Below are positions 32,441-39,889 of a stretch of 45,536 bases of DNA, in pieces (within the stretch, counting starts at the first letter, position 1; each line of letters opens with the position of its first letter). The stretch comes from an uncultured Alphaproteobacteria bacterium. GTDB lineage: Bacteria > Pseudomonadota > Alphaproteobacteria > Rhodobacterales > Rhodobacteraceae. The notes below the pieces were generated by a model, which had not been told where the DNA came from, ran no database searches, and saw only the letters and a program-made list of their open reading frames with translations. The DNA lies in contig CACFNV010000007.1 of assembly GCA_902567635.1 (NCBI GenBank), positions 1-45,536 on the forward strand, given 5' to 3'. The position numbers were made by a program, and so were the translations under genes.

Positions 32441-33007
32441 TTAACTTGAATTATGGCCTCTCAATAAAGCCACAATACCTGTTCGTGCCATCTCGAGAAG
32501 GCCTAGTGGCTCCATTAATTCAGCAAAAGCGTCAATTTTCTCGGAGTTGCCTGTTAGCTCAAAAGTAAAACTCTTTAATGTACTGTCTACTACTTTTGCT
32601 CTAAACACGTCTGCAAGCCTCAGTGCCTCAACTCTTTGATTACCCGTTCCATTAACTTTGAAGATGGCTAACTCTCTTTGAACAGCCTTACCTTTTAATG
32701 TCAGATCAATTACTTCGTGAACAGGAACCATCCTATTTAGCTGAGCTTTTATTTGATTTATTACTTTTGGTGTGCCTGATGTAACAATTGTTATCCTTGA
32801 GCGATGTCCCGAGTGATCGATTTCAGCAACGGTTAAACTATCAATATTATATCCTCTACCTGAAAACAAACCTATTACCCGAGCTAGAACTCCTGACTCA
32901 TTATCTACTATTATCGATAATGTATGAGCTGCTTCATAATCTATGTTTGGGTCTCTTAAGTTATAAGCACTTTGACGGTTAACACCTTTCTTTAGATTAA
33001 GAGACAT
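32441..33007 (-). CDS. ilvH: Acetolactate synthase small (regulatory) subunit
   Basis: Regulatory subunit that raises activity and confers valine sensitivity on IlvB. The protein has an N-terminal ACT domain (HTLSIIVDNESGVLARVIGLFSGRG-type segment, about 32-105) and a C-terminal ACT-like domain ending in MARTGIVALLRG. I chose the ATG at 33007 (188 aa) because GGAG stands 6 nt upstream; an ATG at 33019 four codons earlier is in frame but poorly preceded. It follows ilvB by about 21 bp. Confidence 0.94.
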   Translation of the reverse strand: MSLNLKKGVNRQSAYNLRDPNIDYEAAHTLSIIVDNESGVLARVIGLFSGRGYNIDSLTVAEIDHSGHRSRITIVTSGTPKVINQIKAQLNRMVPVHEVIDLTLKGKAVQRELAIFKVNGTGNQRVEALRLADVFRAKVVDSTLKSFTFELTGNSEKIDAFAELMEPLGLLEMARTGIVALLRGHNSS

Positions 33008-33028
33008 CTTTTTCTCCATTCATTCTTT

Positions 33029-34792
33029 TCAAACCAGTACCGCTCCTTGATCGGAAATATTATCCGACTGTGTCTTTTCACCTAAAATCATTTCGTTATG
33101 CGCTTTGCCGGATGGGATCATTGGAAAGCAGTTTTCATGCTTTTCTACAAGGCAATCAAAAATTACTGGGCCAGGATAATCTAGCATTGCCTTTATCGCG
33201 TCATCCAGTTTGGCAGGGTCTTCACATCTTATACCCTTAATACCATAAGCTTCAGCAAGTTTTTCAAAATCCGGTAATGCATCAGACCAGCTATGAGAGT
33301 ATCTTTCACCGTGTAACAATTCTTGCCATTGTCTTACCATACCAAGTCTTTCGTTATTCAATATAAATTGTTTTACTGGTAGTCTATATTGTACAGCAGT
33401 TCCCAATTCTTGCATGTTCATAAGCCAACTCGCTTCGCCGGCTACATTTATAACCAATGACTTAGGGTGAGCGACCTGAATTCCAATAGAGGCTGGAAAG
33501 CCGTATCCCATAGTTCCCAATCCACCAGAAGTCATCCATCTATTTGGTTCTTCAAAACCCATAAATTGCGCAGCCCACATTTGATGTTGACCAACTTCCG
33601 TAGATATATATCTGTTGTGACCCCGGGTATGCTCTTCAAGCTTTTGAAGAGCATACTGTGGTTTGATGACACTAGAAGAATTGGTGTATTTCAATGATTT
33701 TACATTTTTCCATTCACCTATTTCTTTCCACCATTGACCCAGTTTTTGAGTACTCACTTTTGAGCCTCGCTTTTCCCAAGCGGCTATTAATTCTTCCAAT
33801 ATGATTGACACATCACCAATCAACGGAACATCAACCGTAACATTTTTATTTATGGACGAGGGATCTATATCAATATGGACTTTAAAAGAAGATGGACTGA
33901 AAGCGTCTATCCTTCCAGTAATTCTGTCGTCAAATCTTGCCCCCACACATAACATAAAATCACAGTCATGCATTGACATGTTTGCCTCATAAGTCCCATG
34001 CATCCCGAGCATTCCAAGCCAGTTGTTACCCGATGCTGGGTAACTACCTAATCCCATCAAAGTGGATGTTATTGGGAAGTTTGTTTTGGATACTAATTTC
34101 CTCAATAAATTTACAGCCTTCTCTCCAGAATTTATTACACCGCCTCCGCTGTAGATTATAGGCTTAGAAGCTTTTTCCAGTCTTTGTACAGTTTCAACTA
34201 AAAGATTTGGGTCTATGGATAATTCAGATTTGAAAAAGTCGGTGCTAACTTTTTTCTTCTTGGTGTAGCAACCAGAGGCAAATTGAACATCCTTAGGAAT
34301 ATCTACCAATACAGGCCCTGGTCTTCCTGTCTTTGCTACATGAAAGGCTTTATGAATAGTTTCAGCAAGTTTATTAGTGTCTTTTACAAGCCAATTATGT
34401 TTCGTGCAGGGTCTTGTAATACCAACTGTATCGGCTTCTTGAAACGCATCGTTTCCTATCATAAAAGTTGGCACTTGCCCACTTATGACAACAATTGGCA
34501 CACTATCCATCAACGCGTCTGTTAACCCGGTAACAGAGTTAGTTGCGCCTGGACCTGACGTAACAAAAACAACACCAATTTTTCCGGTAGATCTAGCGTA
34601 TCCCTCAGCTGCATGAGTTGCGGCTTGCTCGTGCCTAACTAGTATGTGTCGTATTTTTTTTTGTTGAAAAAGCTCGTCATAAACCGGGAGTATAGCTCCA
34701 CCAGGGTAACCGAACACGGTGTCTACTCCTTGTTCTATCAGTGCCTTTATTACAATTTCTGCTCCAGTTATCTTCTCCTTAGAGGATTTCAT
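33029..34792 (-). CDS. ilvB: Acetolactate synthase large (catalytic) subunit
   Basis: ThDP/FAD enzyme condensing two pyruvates, or pyruvate with 2-oxobutyrate, in branched-chain amino-acid synthesis. The 587 residues show FGYPGGAILPVYD, the catalytic E55 in RHEQAATHAAEGYAR, GPGATNSVTG, and the C-terminal ThDP domain. The metal-binding GDG motif reads AGEAS (451-455), with Glu in place of Asp, followed by the usual NN at 479-480; I recall GEAS in Rhodobacterales relatives. LLHGERYSHSW and CFPMIPSGKAHN are also of that type. Also called ilvI. Its substrate 2-oxobutyrate can come from the CimA route. Confidence 0.96.
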   Translation of the reverse strand: MKSSKEKITGAEIVIKALIEQGVDTVFGYPGGAILPVYDELFQQKKIRHILVRHEQAATHAAEGYARSTGKIGVVFVTSGPGATNSVTGLTDALMDSVPIVVISGQVPTFMIGNDAFQEADTVGITRPCTKHNWLVKDTNKLAETIHKAFHVAKTGRPGPVLVDIPKDVQFASGCYTKKKKVSTDFFKSELSIDPNLLVETVQRLEKASKPIIYSGGGVINSGEKAVNLLRKLVSKTNFPITSTLMGLGSYPASGNNWLGMLGMHGTYEANMSMHDCDFMLCVGARFDDRITGRIDAFSPSSFKVHIDIDPSSINKNVTVDVPLIGDVSIILEELIAAWEKRGSKVSTQKLGQWWKEIGEWKNVKSLKYTNSSSVIKPQYALQKLEEHTRGHNRYISTEVGQHQMWAAQFMGFEEPNRWMTSGGLGTMGYGFPASIGIQVAHPKSLVINVAGEASWLMNMQELGTAVQYRLPVKQFILNNERLGMVRQWQELLHGERYSHSWSDALPDFEKLAEAYGIKGIRCEDPAKLDDAIKAMLDYPGPVIFDCLVEKHENCFPMIPSGKAHNEMILGEKTQSDNISDQGAVLV

Positions 34793-35065: not shown

Positions 35066-36160
35066 ATGAAACGTCGTGATTTTATAACAAAAGCGGGCTT
35101 GGGCACAGCTGCAGTAGCAGGGGCTACGTTAGCGGCACCAGCGATCGCTCAAGAGAGAAAAGTATTGACATGCGTGTCGAGTTGGCCAAGGGACTTCCCT
35201 GGATTAGGAGTGTCCTCTCAGCGTCTAATGGAAAGAATTACACAAATTTCAGAAGGCAGACTAACAATGGAATATTTCGCAGCTGGCGAAAAGGTTGGTG
35301 GTCTTGATGTTTTTGAAGAAGTTGCTTCAGGTAACTCCTCATGCTACATCTCTGCCGATTATTATTTCACAGGAAAGCATCCAGGGCTAGCTTATTGGAC
35401 ATCGGTACCATTTGGAATGACGTGTGCTGAATGGTGTGCTTGGGTAAAGTTTGGAGGAGGTCAAGCTCTTTGGGATGAAGTCTCTGGAGAGTTCGGATTG
35501 AAGGCTATAACTTGCGGATCAACAGGTACGCAGGCCGGAGGCTGGTTTAACAAAGAAATTAACAGCGCTGACGACTTGAAAGGTTTAAAAATGCGTATCC
35601 CAGGGTTGGGTGGAACTGTTATCTCTAAACTTGGAGGTACTACAGTTACTCTTCCTGGAGGCCAGATTTACGAAAACCTTGTTTCAGGTTCTATCGATGC
35701 TACTGAATGGGTTGGACCATACAACGACTATTTCATGAAGTTTTATGAAGCAGCAAAGTACTATTACACAGGTGGAATGCATGAGCCTGGTGGAGGACTT
35801 TCGTTTGCATTTAATGCTAGCTTGTGGGGTAGCTTAAGTGAGTGGGAAAAAGCTGTTCTTACTACTTGTGCTTATGAAGAGCAAGCTGCGCAATACGAAG
35901 AAGCTATGGCAAAGAACGGTGAGTACCTAGCAAAACTTGTTAATGAGCATGGCGTAAAGGTCAGAGCTTTTAGCGATGAAGTTTGGGAGTCTTTTGGAGA
36001 AGCTTCAGCAGAAGTCTTCGAGGAAGTTAGAGATCATAGTCCTTTAGCTAAAAAGATAGATGATGCATTTCAGAAAGCCCTGAGAGAAATTGGTGGGTGT
36101 AAAGCCCAGTTCGAAGATACATTCGTGAGTCAAAGAAACAGAGTTCTAGGTCTAACTTAG
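35066..36160 (+). CDS. dctP: TRAP transporter substrate-binding protein (TakP-like DctP family)
   Basis: Periplasmic receptor of a Na+-driven TRAP importer. The 364 residues start with a Tat-like signal (RRDF at 3-6, AIA at 26-28, cleavage expected after A28). The mature part shows the TakP-type pattern: LRIP-like LKMRIPGLGG, whose Arg grips the substrate carboxylate, LPGGQIYENLVSGSIDATEWVGPYND, and YYYTGGMHEPG. This subfamily is known for 2-oxo-acid binding (TakP) and is often annotated mannitol/chloroaromatic; the ligand here is unproven. GGAGG sits at 35058-35062. It heads dctPQM and is divergent from ilvBH. Confidence 0.93.
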   Translation: MKRRDFITKAGLGTAAVAGATLAAPAIAQERKVLTCVSSWPRDFPGLGVSSQRLMERITQISEGRLTMEYFAAGEKVGGLDVFEEVASGNSSCYISADYYFTGKHPGLAYWTSVPFGMTCAEWCAWVKFGGGQALWDEVSGEFGLKAITCGSTGTQAGGWFNKEINSADDLKGLKMRIPGLGGTVISKLGGTTVTLPGGQIYENLVSGSIDATEWVGPYNDYFMKFYEAAKYYYTGGMHEPGGGLSFAFNASLWGSLSEWEKAVLTTCAYEEQAAQYEEAMAKNGEYLAKLVNEHGVKVRAFSDEVWESFGEASAEVFEEVRDHSPLAKKIDDAFQKALREIGGCKAQFEDTFVSQRNRVLGLT

Positions 36161-36226: not shown

Positions 36227-37219
36227 ATGGTTGCTTCTGAGGAAGAAAAAACCTTTTCGGACGGACATAGTATGTGGGCCAGAGCACTCGGTTGGTGTTC
36301 CATCGGTCTGTTGGTAGCTTTTCTTATAAATAATATATTAGTAGTCGGGTTTGGATTTAAGGAAGTAGAAACAATAACTACCGGTGTTAATGGACAGAAT
36401 CTTTCACAAGTAATGATATATCTGATATTTTTGTTTGGTGGGGTGTATTATGCGTCTCAAAATAAGCAAAATGGATTTAGAATAGAGGCAAAAAAGCTTC
36501 ATTTGTTTAATGTATATTTTTTGAGAGCATGCTTCTTCTCTGTTTTTCTAGTGGGGTTAGCAGACTTTACGTTAGCTTTTTGCAGGGCGATAGGGTTGTT
36601 AGAAATTTTTATGGAGGATCCGTGGGTAAAGGCACTCGGCAGGGGTAATTTTGTCGGACCCTGGATACATGTTCCGATAATTGTAATTAGTTTTGTTATA
36701 GCATTTTTTTCAAGAACACTGGGTTTTACTTGGTTGGCCGTATTGATAGTGTTTGCAGAGTTATTTATTGTTATTTCAAGATATGTATTTTCATATGAAC
36801 AGTCTTTTATGGCTGATCTGGTAAGATATTGGTATGCAGCACTTTTTCTTTTTGCGTCTGCCTATACTCTTTTTGAGGAGGGCCATGTTCGAGTAGACGT
36901 CATTTACGCTGGTTTGAGCGATAGAGCCAAAGCATTAGTAAATGCGTGGGGTTCTTACCTGCTAGGCGTTATCACTGCTGCAACAATTGTGATAATAGGT
37001 TTTAATGGAAAGACCTCTGTGATTAACTCTCCCGTCCTTGTTTTTGAGATAACCAATCAAGGAATAATGGGTATGTTTATAAAATATCAGATGGCGCTTT
37101 TTCTGGGCATTTTCGGGGTGACAATGCTTATTCAATTCGTAAGTCAATTTTTTGAAAGCTTGGCCGACCTTAAAGGAGAGCCAGGTAAAAGAGACACAGC
37201 AATAGAGATGGCTCACTAG
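36227..37219 (+). CDS. dctQ: TRAP transporter small permease (DctQ), long form
   Basis: The 330-residue integral membrane protein is much longer than the 160-200 residues of ordinary DctQ. The C-terminal half from about residue 165 is the true DctQ domain: ISRYVFSYEQSF, YWYAALFLFASAYTL and EEGHVRVDVIY. The first half adds roughly four membrane segments (about 22-44, 60-77, 95-118, 145-163) of no recognised family. Long DctQ proteins accompany TakP-type receptors in several alphaproteobacteria, so the extension is probably functional. It is 66 bp after dctP and 9 bp before dctM. Confidence 0.9.
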   Translation: MVASEEEKTFSDGHSMWARALGWCSIGLLVAFLINNILVVGFGFKEVETITTGVNGQNLSQVMIYLIFLFGGVYYASQNKQNGFRIEAKKLHLFNVYFLRACFFSVFLVGLADFTLAFCRAIGLLEIFMEDPWVKALGRGNFVGPWIHVPIIVISFVIAFFSRTLGFTWLAVLIVFAELFIVISRYVFSYEQSFMADLVRYWYAALFLFASAYTLFEEGHVRVDVIYAGLSDRAKALVNAWGSYLLGVITAATIVIIGFNGKTSVINSPVLVFEITNQGIMGMFIKYQMALFLGIFGVTMLIQFVSQFFESLADLKGEPGKRDTAIEMAH

Positions 37220-37228
37220 AGGGTGTAA

Positions 37229-39889
37229 ATGGAATTATTTTTCTTAGCAGTTTTAGTCTTCATAATGGCCTTTGCTTTGGGTTCTGGATATCCTGTGGCC
37301 TTCGCGCTTCCTGGTGCCGCTATATTGTCTATAATCCTTGCCGCAGCCACAGGTTTTATCCTTGAAGGCCAACCTGAGGCGTATTTTCATAGCGGTGGTC
37401 CATACAAATGGTTATCCTCTGGAGTAACAAATCTCCGCAGCGTTTATTGGGATGTTGAGAGAGATACTCTCATAGCTATACCCTTATTTATTTTCATGGG
37501 TATAATGTTGCAAAAATCCAAAATTGCAGAAGATTTACTTATTACAATGGCTAACCTTTTTGGACCCGTTCCAGGAGGATTGGGCATTTCAGTCGTATTT
37601 GTAGGGGCGCTTCTTGCAGCCACTACTGGAATAGTGGGTGCAACAGTTGTTGCTATGGGTTTAATTTCATTACCTGTAATGTTGAGAGCCAAATACTCTC
37701 CTGCTCTTGCTACCGGCACAATTGCGGCGTCTGGTACATTGGGACAAATAATACCACCCTCCATAGTATTGATAATATTGGCAGACCAATTAGGATCTGC
37801 AGCCGATCAGGCAAGTGCCTTAAGAAAGTCGTTGCATAAGGATTCAACTGGTGAATTGTCTATGCCTTCAGTTTTGGATGTTATGTCGACAAGTGCAGGT
37901 GAAATGTTTCTTGGGGCATTCGTTCCAGGATTAGTTTTAGTTCTTCTATACATGGTATTCATTCTTATTCTTGCGCTTTTTGTGCCAAAATTGGCGCCCT
38001 CTGTTCCCTATGAAGGCAAAATGGATGGAGCATTCTGGCTAAGGGTAGGGTTTATTTTAATTCCACCCTTGACATTAATTTTTATAGTTTTGGGTTCTAT
38101 AATATCTGGGATAGCAACAGTTAATCAGGCTGGTGCCATTGGGGCTGCTGGGGCACTAGTAATGGCAGGTTATAGATTATATCCCAAGCAAGACATATCA
38201 GCCTATTGGCCTGCAATAATCTTGTTGACATCAATTATTACATTGGCCTTTGCTCTAACTAACTATGACATGAATATTCAATTGATCCAAGACACCAGAG
38301 ATTTGACAGGAATTCTTATTGGCTTATTTGGATCAGCGCTTTTTATTGTTGCATTAGTCTGGAGCGCTATCCGGCTATACAAGATACAAGATACATTAAA
38401 TGACGTAATGTTAGAAACCGCAAAAACTACGTCACTAGTGTTTATCATTCTTTTGGGGGCGGCCGTTCTTACTTCAGCTTTCAGAGCATTTGGCGGTGAG
38501 GATCTTGTAAGAGAGTTTCTAAACTCATTGCCTGGCGGTTTTTGGTCAAAATTTGTAATTGTTATGGCTGTCATTTTTATATTGGGCTTTTTCTTAGATT
38601 TCATTGAGATTGCAGTTGTGGTAGTTCCCATAGTTGCACCCATACTTCTTGCAGACCCTTCAGCGAACATTACTGCTGTTTGGCTCGGAGTAATGATAGG
38701 TCTTAATATTCAGACATCCTTTTTAACACCTCCTTTTGGCTTTGCGCTATTTTACCTTAGGGGAGTTGCACCCGCTATAGTCAAGACGATACAAATGTAT
38801 AAAGGAGTAGTTCCCTTTATTTGCCTACAATTGGTAGCCTTAGGAATTGTAGGTTACTACCCAGCCTTGGTGAATTATTTGCCTAACAGAGCCAGTTATT
38901 TGTCTGATAATTCGCCTCCACCAAAAAACCCTAAGCTACAATATTGTTTGGACAAATACGTATCAACCAAGTTGTACGATGGAAGTGATTTAGTACAGGC
39001 ATCTATACAAAAAGCGAGTCTTCTTGATTTATCAAGTTTGCCTAAGAAACATCAAAAGGAGTTAAAAACAGCTTTTAGTAATGCATCCGCAGCAATAGAA
39101 AATTTGAGCGCTGCATTAGATCAGGAGACCTTAAAAGAACAAGAGGCTATAGTTTATAGGCCAATTTTAAGAAAAGTAAGACGTCTTGAAAGTCAAATAC
39201 GGACATATGAGAAAGAAATTAAATCAATCAATGGAGAGATCCAAATAGAGAAAAAGATGTCTAACGAACAGGAAGTAGAAAATCTAGAAGAGCTCAAGAG
39301 TGAAATAGCTCTTGAAGTTGCAGAACTGAAAGAAAAAATACCAAGCAATTGGGAAACCACTTACAGCAATTTTAGTGAGATCGTAAAGAAAGAAGTTAAA
39401 TTAAGACAGACATATAGGAGGAATGGGGACCAAGCCTTTGAAACTGTCAATGAACTTTTGTTAGTTTTTCAGGATAGCGAAAAGATAACAGAGCTGAATA
39501 AGAGATTTAACACAGTTTTTGCCGAATTGAATTTGGAAAACAAGGACGAAAGTATAAAGATACTGAAAAGCTTTTCTAAAGAGGTGAGCTCAGTAAATGG
39601 AACTGGAAGATTTAAGAGTAGTATATCAAAGATTGCTAGAGAAATTAAGAAGAAGAACCCAAAGAAAGACAAAATTGCAAAAAATATCGAAAATGCTGCT
39701 AAAGAAATTAGCTATCTGGATCAATGGGTTTCCGTATCAAAAAAATCGCTACAGGCCCCCCTTCTCCAATTTAAAGAGGGTATAAGCAGAAATATAGGAG
39801 TCAGGTCGACGGAAAAATTTGAAAGAGAAACCGCCTTATATATTGCCGCATGTGATGCAGACCACAGGGATATGTCTTTAAGTTTTTGA
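37229..39889 (+). CDS. dctM: TRAP transporter large permease (DctM) with a long C-terminal coiled-coil extension
   Basis: The membrane part (about 1-548) is the DctM Na+/substrate symporter: IPLFIFMGIMLQKS, TTGIVGATVVAMGLISLP, GTIAASGTLGQIIPPSI, FLDFIEIAVVVVPI, TSFLTPPFGFALFY. It carries the extra segment after GQIIPPS (about 185-230) and extra helices seen in TakM-type permeases. From about residue 549 to 886 a hydrophilic, charged, mostly helical region follows, with likely coiled coil at about 645-705 and further helices to the end; it resembles nothing I recognise. Usual DctM proteins are about 430 residues and TakM-like ones about 550-600. GAGGGTG precedes the ATG. The last base is 3 bp from the convergent bpt stop. 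Confidence 0.9.
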   Translation: MELFFLAVLVFIMAFALGSGYPVAFALPGAAILSIILAAATGFILEGQPEAYFHSGGPYKWLSSGVTNLRSVYWDVERDTLIAIPLFIFMGIMLQKSKIAEDLLITMANLFGPVPGGLGISVVFVGALLAATTGIVGATVVAMGLISLPVMLRAKYSPALATGTIAASGTLGQIIPPSIVLIILADQLGSAADQASALRKSLHKDSTGELSMPSVLDVMSTSAGEMFLGAFVPGLVLVLLYMVFILILALFVPKLAPSVPYEGKMDGAFWLRVGFILIPPLTLIFIVLGSIISGIATVNQAGAIGAAGALVMAGYRLYPKQDISAYWPAIILLTSIITLAFALTNYDMNIQLIQDTRDLTGILIGLFGSALFIVALVWSAIRLYKIQDTLNDVMLETAKTTSLVFIILLGAAVLTSAFRAFGGEDLVREFLNSLPGGFWSKFVIVMAVIFILGFFLDFIEIAVVVVPIVAPILLADPSANITAVWLGVMIGLNIQTSFLTPPFGFALFYLRGVAPAIVKTIQMYKGVVPFICLQLVALGIVGYYPALVNYLPNRASYLSDNSPPPKNPKLQYCLDKYVSTKLYDGSDLVQASIQKASLLDLSSLPKKHQKELKTAFSNASAAIENLSAALDQETLKEQEAIVYRPILRKVRRLESQIRTYEKEIKSINGEIQIEKKMSNEQEVENLEELKSEIALEVAELKEKIPSNWETTYSNFSEIVKKEVKLRQTYRRNGDQAFETVNELLLVFQDSEKITELNKRFNTVFAELNLENKDESIKILKSFSKEVSSVNGTGRFKSSISKIAREIKKKNPKKDKIAKNIENAAKEISYLDQWVSVSKKSLQAPLLQFKEGISRNIGVRSTEKFERETALYIAACDADHRDMSLSF

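Follow-up and report, generated by a model that had tools for sequence, protein, structure and literature searches.

A TRAP transporter large permease with a long, probably periplasmic helical arm and an enlarged DctQ partner

The closest described systems to the transporter reported here are the sialic acid transporter SiaPQM, known from Photobacterium profundum, Haemophilus influenzae and Fusobacterium nucleatum, and the 2-oxo acid transporter TakPQM of Rhodobacter sphaeroides. The large permease of P. profundum, PpSiaM, comprises 12 segments in an N-out/C-out arrangement, in which TMs 4-6 and 10-12 make up the transport domain while the Q subunit enlarges the scaffold (PMC9971032). The C-terminus of the F. 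nucleatum SiaQM permease has also been placed in the periplasm, by its authors' own account without direct observation (PMC11801797). In a published model, the N-lobe of the receptor rests on the stator and the C-lobe on the elevator, with which it is able to move, and dimers of the TakP type can be accommodated, their second protomer directed upwards (PMC9352664). The Na+ and pyruvate ligands of TakP are Tyr100, Gln156, Arg177, Glu214, Trp215 and Glu240 (PMC1839085). The strict coupling of sodium-driven TRAP transporters to their binding proteins has been called poorly understood (PMC9971032), and the working of dimeric TakP-type receptors with DctQM has been called unclear (PMC5812351).

In this study, we examine a three-gene TRAP operon in a 45,536-nucleotide stretch of DNA (the window) from an uncultured member of the Rhodobacteraceae, contig CACFNV010000007.1. 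Its large permease belongs to the DctM family, but a C-terminal arm on this protein and an N-terminal extension on DctQ make it a new variant; no description of an arm on DctM was found in the titles and opening lines of abstracts of open-licence PMC papers. The anatomy of the tail and of the long DctQ is well supported by the comparisons below, and from it we infer a function of the arm in receptor docking. As a naturally occurring clade in which DctQ is enlarged and the arm is large, probably periplasmic and probably borne by the moving domain, these permeases provide a direct handle on both the coupling and the dimeric-receptor questions, and the arm may help to clarify the cooperation of such transporters with the binding protein.

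The three genes lie on the forward strand. A receptor gene of the dctP type (35066..36160) encodes a TakP-like protein of 364 residues with a TAT-like signal (Pfam DctP, 161.3 bits). It is followed by a long form of dctQ, the small permease gene (36227..37219, 330 residues), and by an ORF that is open throughout from 37229 to 39889 and specifies the 886-residue DctM. The same order on one strand was present at 75 of the 80 loci that we fetched from other genomes, and at the remaining five the available sequence begins within or just upstream of DctM. The window's own genome, 58% complete, has three further DctM genes with ordinary frames of 432, 447 and 427 residues, and the 886-residue protein is therefore one special member among them. 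None of the eight neighbouring genes in the window was found at most of the 80 loci, the commonest being bpt (19/80) and ilvB (17/80). In the window, ilvN and ilvB (32441-34792) are divergent from the probable 2-oxo acid TRAP operon and adjoin it. A tie of the operon to branched-chain amino acid synthesis via ilvB was considered and found weak: eleven of the 17 ilvB matches fall in the window's close group (L031-L043), the others lie at L054, L062, L067, L068, L109 and L064, and that of L064 is merely 26% identical.

The front of the protein, residues 1-548 (37229..38872), is the membrane part and matches DctM of Pfam (PF06808, 205.4 bits against a cut-off of 23.8); the DctM-type models of NCBIfam fall on this part too. 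The NCBIfam dctM subfamily TIGR00786 scored 248 bits, below its cut-off of 268.45, and the protein is thus not placed in that subfamily. Residues 549-886 (38873..39886) gave no match at the curated cut-offs of Pfam and NCBIfam, as the initial annotation had indicated in describing a tail without a recognised domain, and no curated family was common to the orthologues. The annotation's description of the tail as hydrophilic and charged also held: it contains 57 Lys and Arg and 51 Asp and Glu residues, giving a near-neutral charge, and every 19-residue Kyte-Doolittle window scores 0.64 or less, with no further membrane segment indicated. One individual match was set aside. Tail L032 scored 27.1 bits against a cut-off of 24 with the BCKD-kinase domain BCDHK_Adom3 (PF10436), but the other nine tails searched were without it at E 0.01; at E 0.1 it appeared in 9 of the 16 members of tail alignment A1 (best 4.4e-6), while other orthologues match other weak coiled-coil families. 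With one tail in ten reaching the cut-off, homology was rejected and the match is read as a chance helical one.

That the tail is a genuine part of the permease follows from its recurrence. The fused frame was found again in other genomes at 53-95% identity among the matches listed, and the tail is 331-342 residues long in 109 of 110 aligned tails, the exception (L071) having unread bases; this near-constant length and the recurrence of the frame argue against a chance or frameshift product. The recurrence extends across genera, which excludes a frameshift, a chimera or an assembly artefact. The 110 tails, which leave out the window itself (L112), are not independent, some species perhaps being repeated between the genome scans, and thinning at 90% identity leaves 93. 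Tail and DctM match share one reading frame at every one of the 110 loci (L031-L140), and a free-standing tail gene was seen neither there nor in a sample of 394 genomes of the family. The long frame thus stands as the annotation read it, and its relatives give no indication of a chimera of two genes. A tblastn search of plasmid records with the tail returned no match at E 1e-5.

The whole protein was searched against 61 genomes: the one it comes from, 21 others of that genus, a further 15 of the family and 24 of the class. In the genus, own genome included, at least 14 of 22 genomes match over residues 1-886 at 68-100% identity, and three more (G011, G020 and G013) have a partial match extending into the tail; the tail had no match in the other five among the matches listed. 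Outside the genus, again among the matches listed, G030, G037 and G027 match over nearly the full length at 53-59%, and in G029 the gene is split over two contigs. With a profile of 16 tails (A1), the GTDB species genomes yielded 462 confirmed stretches, a count of stretches and not of genomes, and the tail form is in this sense widespread. The best 80 of the 462, which are the loci fetched above, are mostly of the Rhodobacteraceae type but include Rhizobiaceae, Hyphomicrobiales, Minwuia, Sneathiella, Kordiimonadales and Geminicoccaceae, as well as metagenome-assembled genomes (MAGs) labelled Granulosicoccaceae and Acidiferrobacteraceae. Lentibacter algarum and Sedimentitalea nanhaiensis are among the carriers in culture. 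The tail is present in 69 of the 394 genomes of the spread family sample and in 7 of 398 genomes of a phylum-wide sample, the window's own genome counted in each. The 70 tail matches of the family sample lie in frames of 825-922 residues, apart from the split gene of G029 (502) and a piece in G132 at a contig start (93). The tail-bearing permease occurs twice in each of two genomes, G268 in the family sample and G703 in the phylum sample. L104 and L107, from MAGs labelled Roseobacter and Flavobacteriia (labels unverified), lie on contigs that agree in name, length and match; this likeness looks like contamination and makes no case for Bacteroidota.

A tree of the DctM membrane part was built from 28 tail-bearing permeases, seven short ones and two of about 790 residues. 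A branch supported at 100/100 separates all 28 tail-bearing permeases from the rest; outside this clade, the long branches leave the order unsure.

The initial annotation had left it open whether the tail is cytosolic or periplasmic, and homology to PpSiaM favours the periplasm over the cytosol. Residues 76-557 of an AlphaFold2 model of the whole protein superimpose on PpSiaM (7qha_B) with Z 33.0 and rmsd 2.4 over 373 aligned residues. Since the solved homologue is N-out/C-out and the modelled chain follows the same fold through to the final helix, residues 549-886 are probably periplasmic. The tail directly follows that last helix, and TM10-12 belong to the moving domain; by analogy, the arm should therefore be attached to the elevator and ride on it.

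The model just cited was the second of two, predicted from an alignment of 80 rows (A4), seven of them tail-less relatives, and it reached a mean pLDDT of 84.0 and a pTM of 0.77, with 10-residue blocks of the tail at 80-93 and the last block at 73. In the first AlphaFold2 model, the tail was well predicted and the membrane part poor. Both models agree on tail helices at 568-583, 588-597, 606-676, 680-702/703 and 708-748, followed by a set within 750-853 and a last helix at 866-876/877. The helix 606-676 (39044..39256) would form the outgoing strand of a hairpin, its 71 residues at 1.5 A each giving about 105 A, and helices 680-702 and 708-748 (39266..39472) would return; 750-766, 772-787, 793-807 and 813-853 (39476..39787) would make up a bundle. 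From the order, lengths and periodicity of these helices, the tail is predicted with good confidence to be a helical hairpin of about 100 A plus a helical bundle.

Periodicity was assessed on the alignment average for seven predicted tail helices with 500 permutations each. The strongest period was 3.44 residues per turn for helix 606-676 and 3.54 for helix 708-748, and in neither case was any permutation as strong. Weaker signals came from 772-787 (3/500 permutations as strong), 793-807 (4/500) and 813-853 (9/500), and those of 680-703 (56/500) and 750-766 (36/500) were unconvincing. The initial description of the tail as a coiled coil needs correction: the heptad-like periodicity is strong in helices 606-676 and 708-748, but the predicted shape is no single coiled coil and combines a long hairpin with a bundle of helices.

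Searches for a specific solved fold gave no outstanding row for the tail with either full-length model. The tail rows of the first-model search included 4dvy (Z 9.6, 80 aligned), 6bfi_A (Z 9.5, 93) and 3sfv_B (Z 9.5, 58), and the best tail rows overall had Z of 8-10, the range of common helical arrangements. Foldseek with the first model returned no match at E 0.001, and a sequence search of solved structures with the tail profile gave nothing better than E 0.045, with many coiled coils among its rows. With the second model, TRAP permeases ranked best, followed by SLC13-type and similar transporters. Several of the SLC13-type rows stop near model residue 880, which might faintly suggest that the end of the tail comes back to the surface of the membrane; we do not count this as evidence.

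Sequence conservation in the tail is modest, with a mean majority share of 0.45-0.62 per 40-residue block over 561-880, close to 0.5 in most of these blocks, and higher at both ends. The most conserved hairpin positions are Y643, P645, V650, R651, P705, W708, F715, E722, R726 and Y729-R731, those from P705 on belonging to the returning strand. They sit mid-hairpin, and the tip and much of the tail vary. Two cysteines frame the structure. Cys573 (codon 38945..38947) is cysteine in 110 of 110 tails and Cys875 (39851..39853) in 109, the gap being in L071, which ends before the second cysteine; a conserved end, HRDxSLNF, follows Cys875. Exactly two cysteines, one near each tail end, occur in 109 of the 110 tails, or 92 of 93 after thinning, and the DctM membrane part is without cysteine in 45 of the 78 rows that hold at least 540 residues of it. 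As the only two cysteines, fixed near both tail ends in the manner expected in an oxidising space, Cys573 and Cys875 are likely to form a disulfide, to judge from the alignment.

The small permease is enlarged in its turn. Pfam DctQ covers only residues 181-312 of the window protein, and residues 20-160 (36284..36706) form an N-terminal extension with four predicted extra TM helices; the mean of 76 rows has hydrophobic peaks at 24-42, 59-77, 101-119 and 142-160. In 75 complete loci, DctQ is 310-347 residues long as counted from the nearest start. Pfam gave four families on the extension, each in one of 15 members and at best E 0.0028, with none shared. When the 394 family genomes were searched with a profile of residues 20-160 (A3), 69 had the extension. 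Tail and extension occur together in 68, on one contig in 65 and on different contigs in three (G029, G160 and G178). The two exceptions are at contig ends: G132 has only a tail piece, starting at contig base 6, and G373 has only the DctQ extension, its dctQ ending at contig base 28, so that a DctM would lie beyond. The pairing of long DctM with long DctQ, raised in the initial annotation as a point to check, is thus borne out, although the single origin of the tail clade means that this co-occurrence represents fewer independent events than 68. A DctQ gene also lies alongside each of seven tail-less DctM relatives, and in these loci profile A3 gave no match to the extension at E 0.001.

We compared the distances among tail, DctQ and receptor over 63 loci; L071, L049, L108 and L107 were set aside, and removal of near copies less than 3% apart then reduced 72 rows to 63. 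Beyond what the DctM membrane part explains, tail distances correlated with those of the DctQ extension (partial r 0.50) and with those of the DctQ core (0.48); the similarity of the two values means that the link is to DctQ and not special to its extension. Tail and receptor distances gave a partial r of 0.12 given the membrane part, and of -0.17 in the full partial matrix. As judged from these sequence distances, the data favour a tail-DctQ link over a tail-receptor link, and the weak correlation counts against direct contact of tail and receptor and against simple tethering of the receptor.

The closest solved chains to the receptor are 4pet and TakP (2hzk). It has 364 residues to the 365 of TakP and scores 219 bits against it, with residues 1-341 aligned; as to the C-terminal swapped helix by which TakP-type receptors dimerise, the comparison gave this similar length and an alignment that stops at 341. 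Counted on this alignment, all six TakP ligands are present in the window receptor. Among 76 receptors, they are kept in 75 (Tyr), 75 (Gln), 76 (Arg), 76 (Glu), 75 (Trp) and 75 (Glu) rows, the exceptions being a gap, one Glu for Gln and two X. The retention of these residues makes a 2-oxo acid with Na+ the likely cargo. Two cysteines are common in the receptors, at residues 150 (84% of rows) and 269 (74%), perhaps as a disulfide.

These features can be combined into a proposed mechanism, and they keep plausible the role with the binding protein that the initial annotation had suggested. The large permease of a three-gene TRAP system, probably for 2-oxo acid/Na+ uptake, would have gained a periplasmic arm. 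The arm, about 100 A long, would stand beside the docked receptor and rise and fall with the elevator and the receptor C-lobe, and the four extra DctQ helices would enlarge the stator. Working against this enlarged DctQ and together with its extension, the arm could guide or lever the receptor as it docks and is released, such that docking of the receptor, perhaps a TakP-like dimer, would be coupled mechanically to the elevator step. That an elevator-mounted periplasmic arm and an enlarged DctQ stator mechanically link the two is a reading that we hold with about even confidence. Its most specific form, in which a disulfide-closed periplasmic lever on the moving domain is matched by DctQ stator helices and couples docking to the elevator stroke, is tentative.

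Other roles for the arm have to be weighed against this one. Pairing between chains is frequent among long helices with a heptad pattern, and the pattern in the long tail helices would suit an assembly device in which the periplasmic arms join at least two transporters into a cluster, each unit remaining ordinary. A dimeric HiSiaQM, mentioned in PMC11801797, would be in keeping with such pairing. Yet in the single-chain model, at high confidence, the helices that return after the long helix are similar to it in length, so that the chain could pair with itself, and DctQ, enlarged here, is held to replace the oligomer contacts of TRAP transporters (PMC9971032), which leaves clustering an unlikely account. 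Ranked after it, and doubtful, is the idea that the arm serves some other protein of the periplasm for regulation or docking, such as a sensor kinase, a cell-wall protein or an outer-membrane protein, outside the transport cycle. The conserved HRDxSLNF end could be a binding motif, and the bundle resembles the TorS sensor domain (Z 8.6, 94 aligned, rmsd 2.9), a likeness that is one among many unrelated rows with Z in the range of common arrangements; against such a partner, neither bpt, ilvB nor any other of the eight neighbours accompanies the operon at most loci.

The remaining two accounts are far less probable. Low sequence conservation at a fixed length, together with the correlation with DctQ, might be expected of structural ballast that only stabilises or folds the permease and its extended DctQ; in our judgement the conserved Y643, P645, R651, P705, W708, R726, R731 and tail end go beyond the needs of folding, and we think this account very improbable. 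Least probable of all is a cytoplasmic tail that regulates the permease from inside. The near-neutral charge leaves composition undecisive on this point, but the C-out topology of PpSiaM, whose fold the model keeps to its last helix, and a fixed cysteine pair suited to an oxidising compartment both speak for the other side of the membrane.

Among DctM proteins, the nearest contrast is with seven tail-less relatives of 500-549 residues (L022-L028), which share 36.6-46.8% identity over the membrane part and whose DctQ is without the extension. Two permeases from other genomes of the family (L029 and L030, from G036 and G035) are also long, at about 790 residues, but the additional residues are inserted within the membrane part and not at the end, in L029 between residues of about 347 and 513, and they form a separate clade of two in the membrane-part tree. 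L029 also has a bpt-like gene, as lies beside dctM in the window. The comparison with TakPQM of R. sphaeroides was made on the receptor, in which the six pyruvate/Na+ ligands are kept. With SiaPQM of P. profundum, H. influenzae and F. nucleatum, the window system has a receptor, a Q and an M subunit in common, and its DctM shares the SiaM fold (Z 33.0 with 7qha_B, 31.7 with 8thj_A and 29.4 with 8y4w_A). The two differ in both membrane subunits: SiaQ has four helices (PMC9971032), whereas the window DctQ is predicted to have about eight, and the M chain of 7qha, 427 residues with the match ending at 424, has no 338-residue tail, whereas the window DctM carries one.
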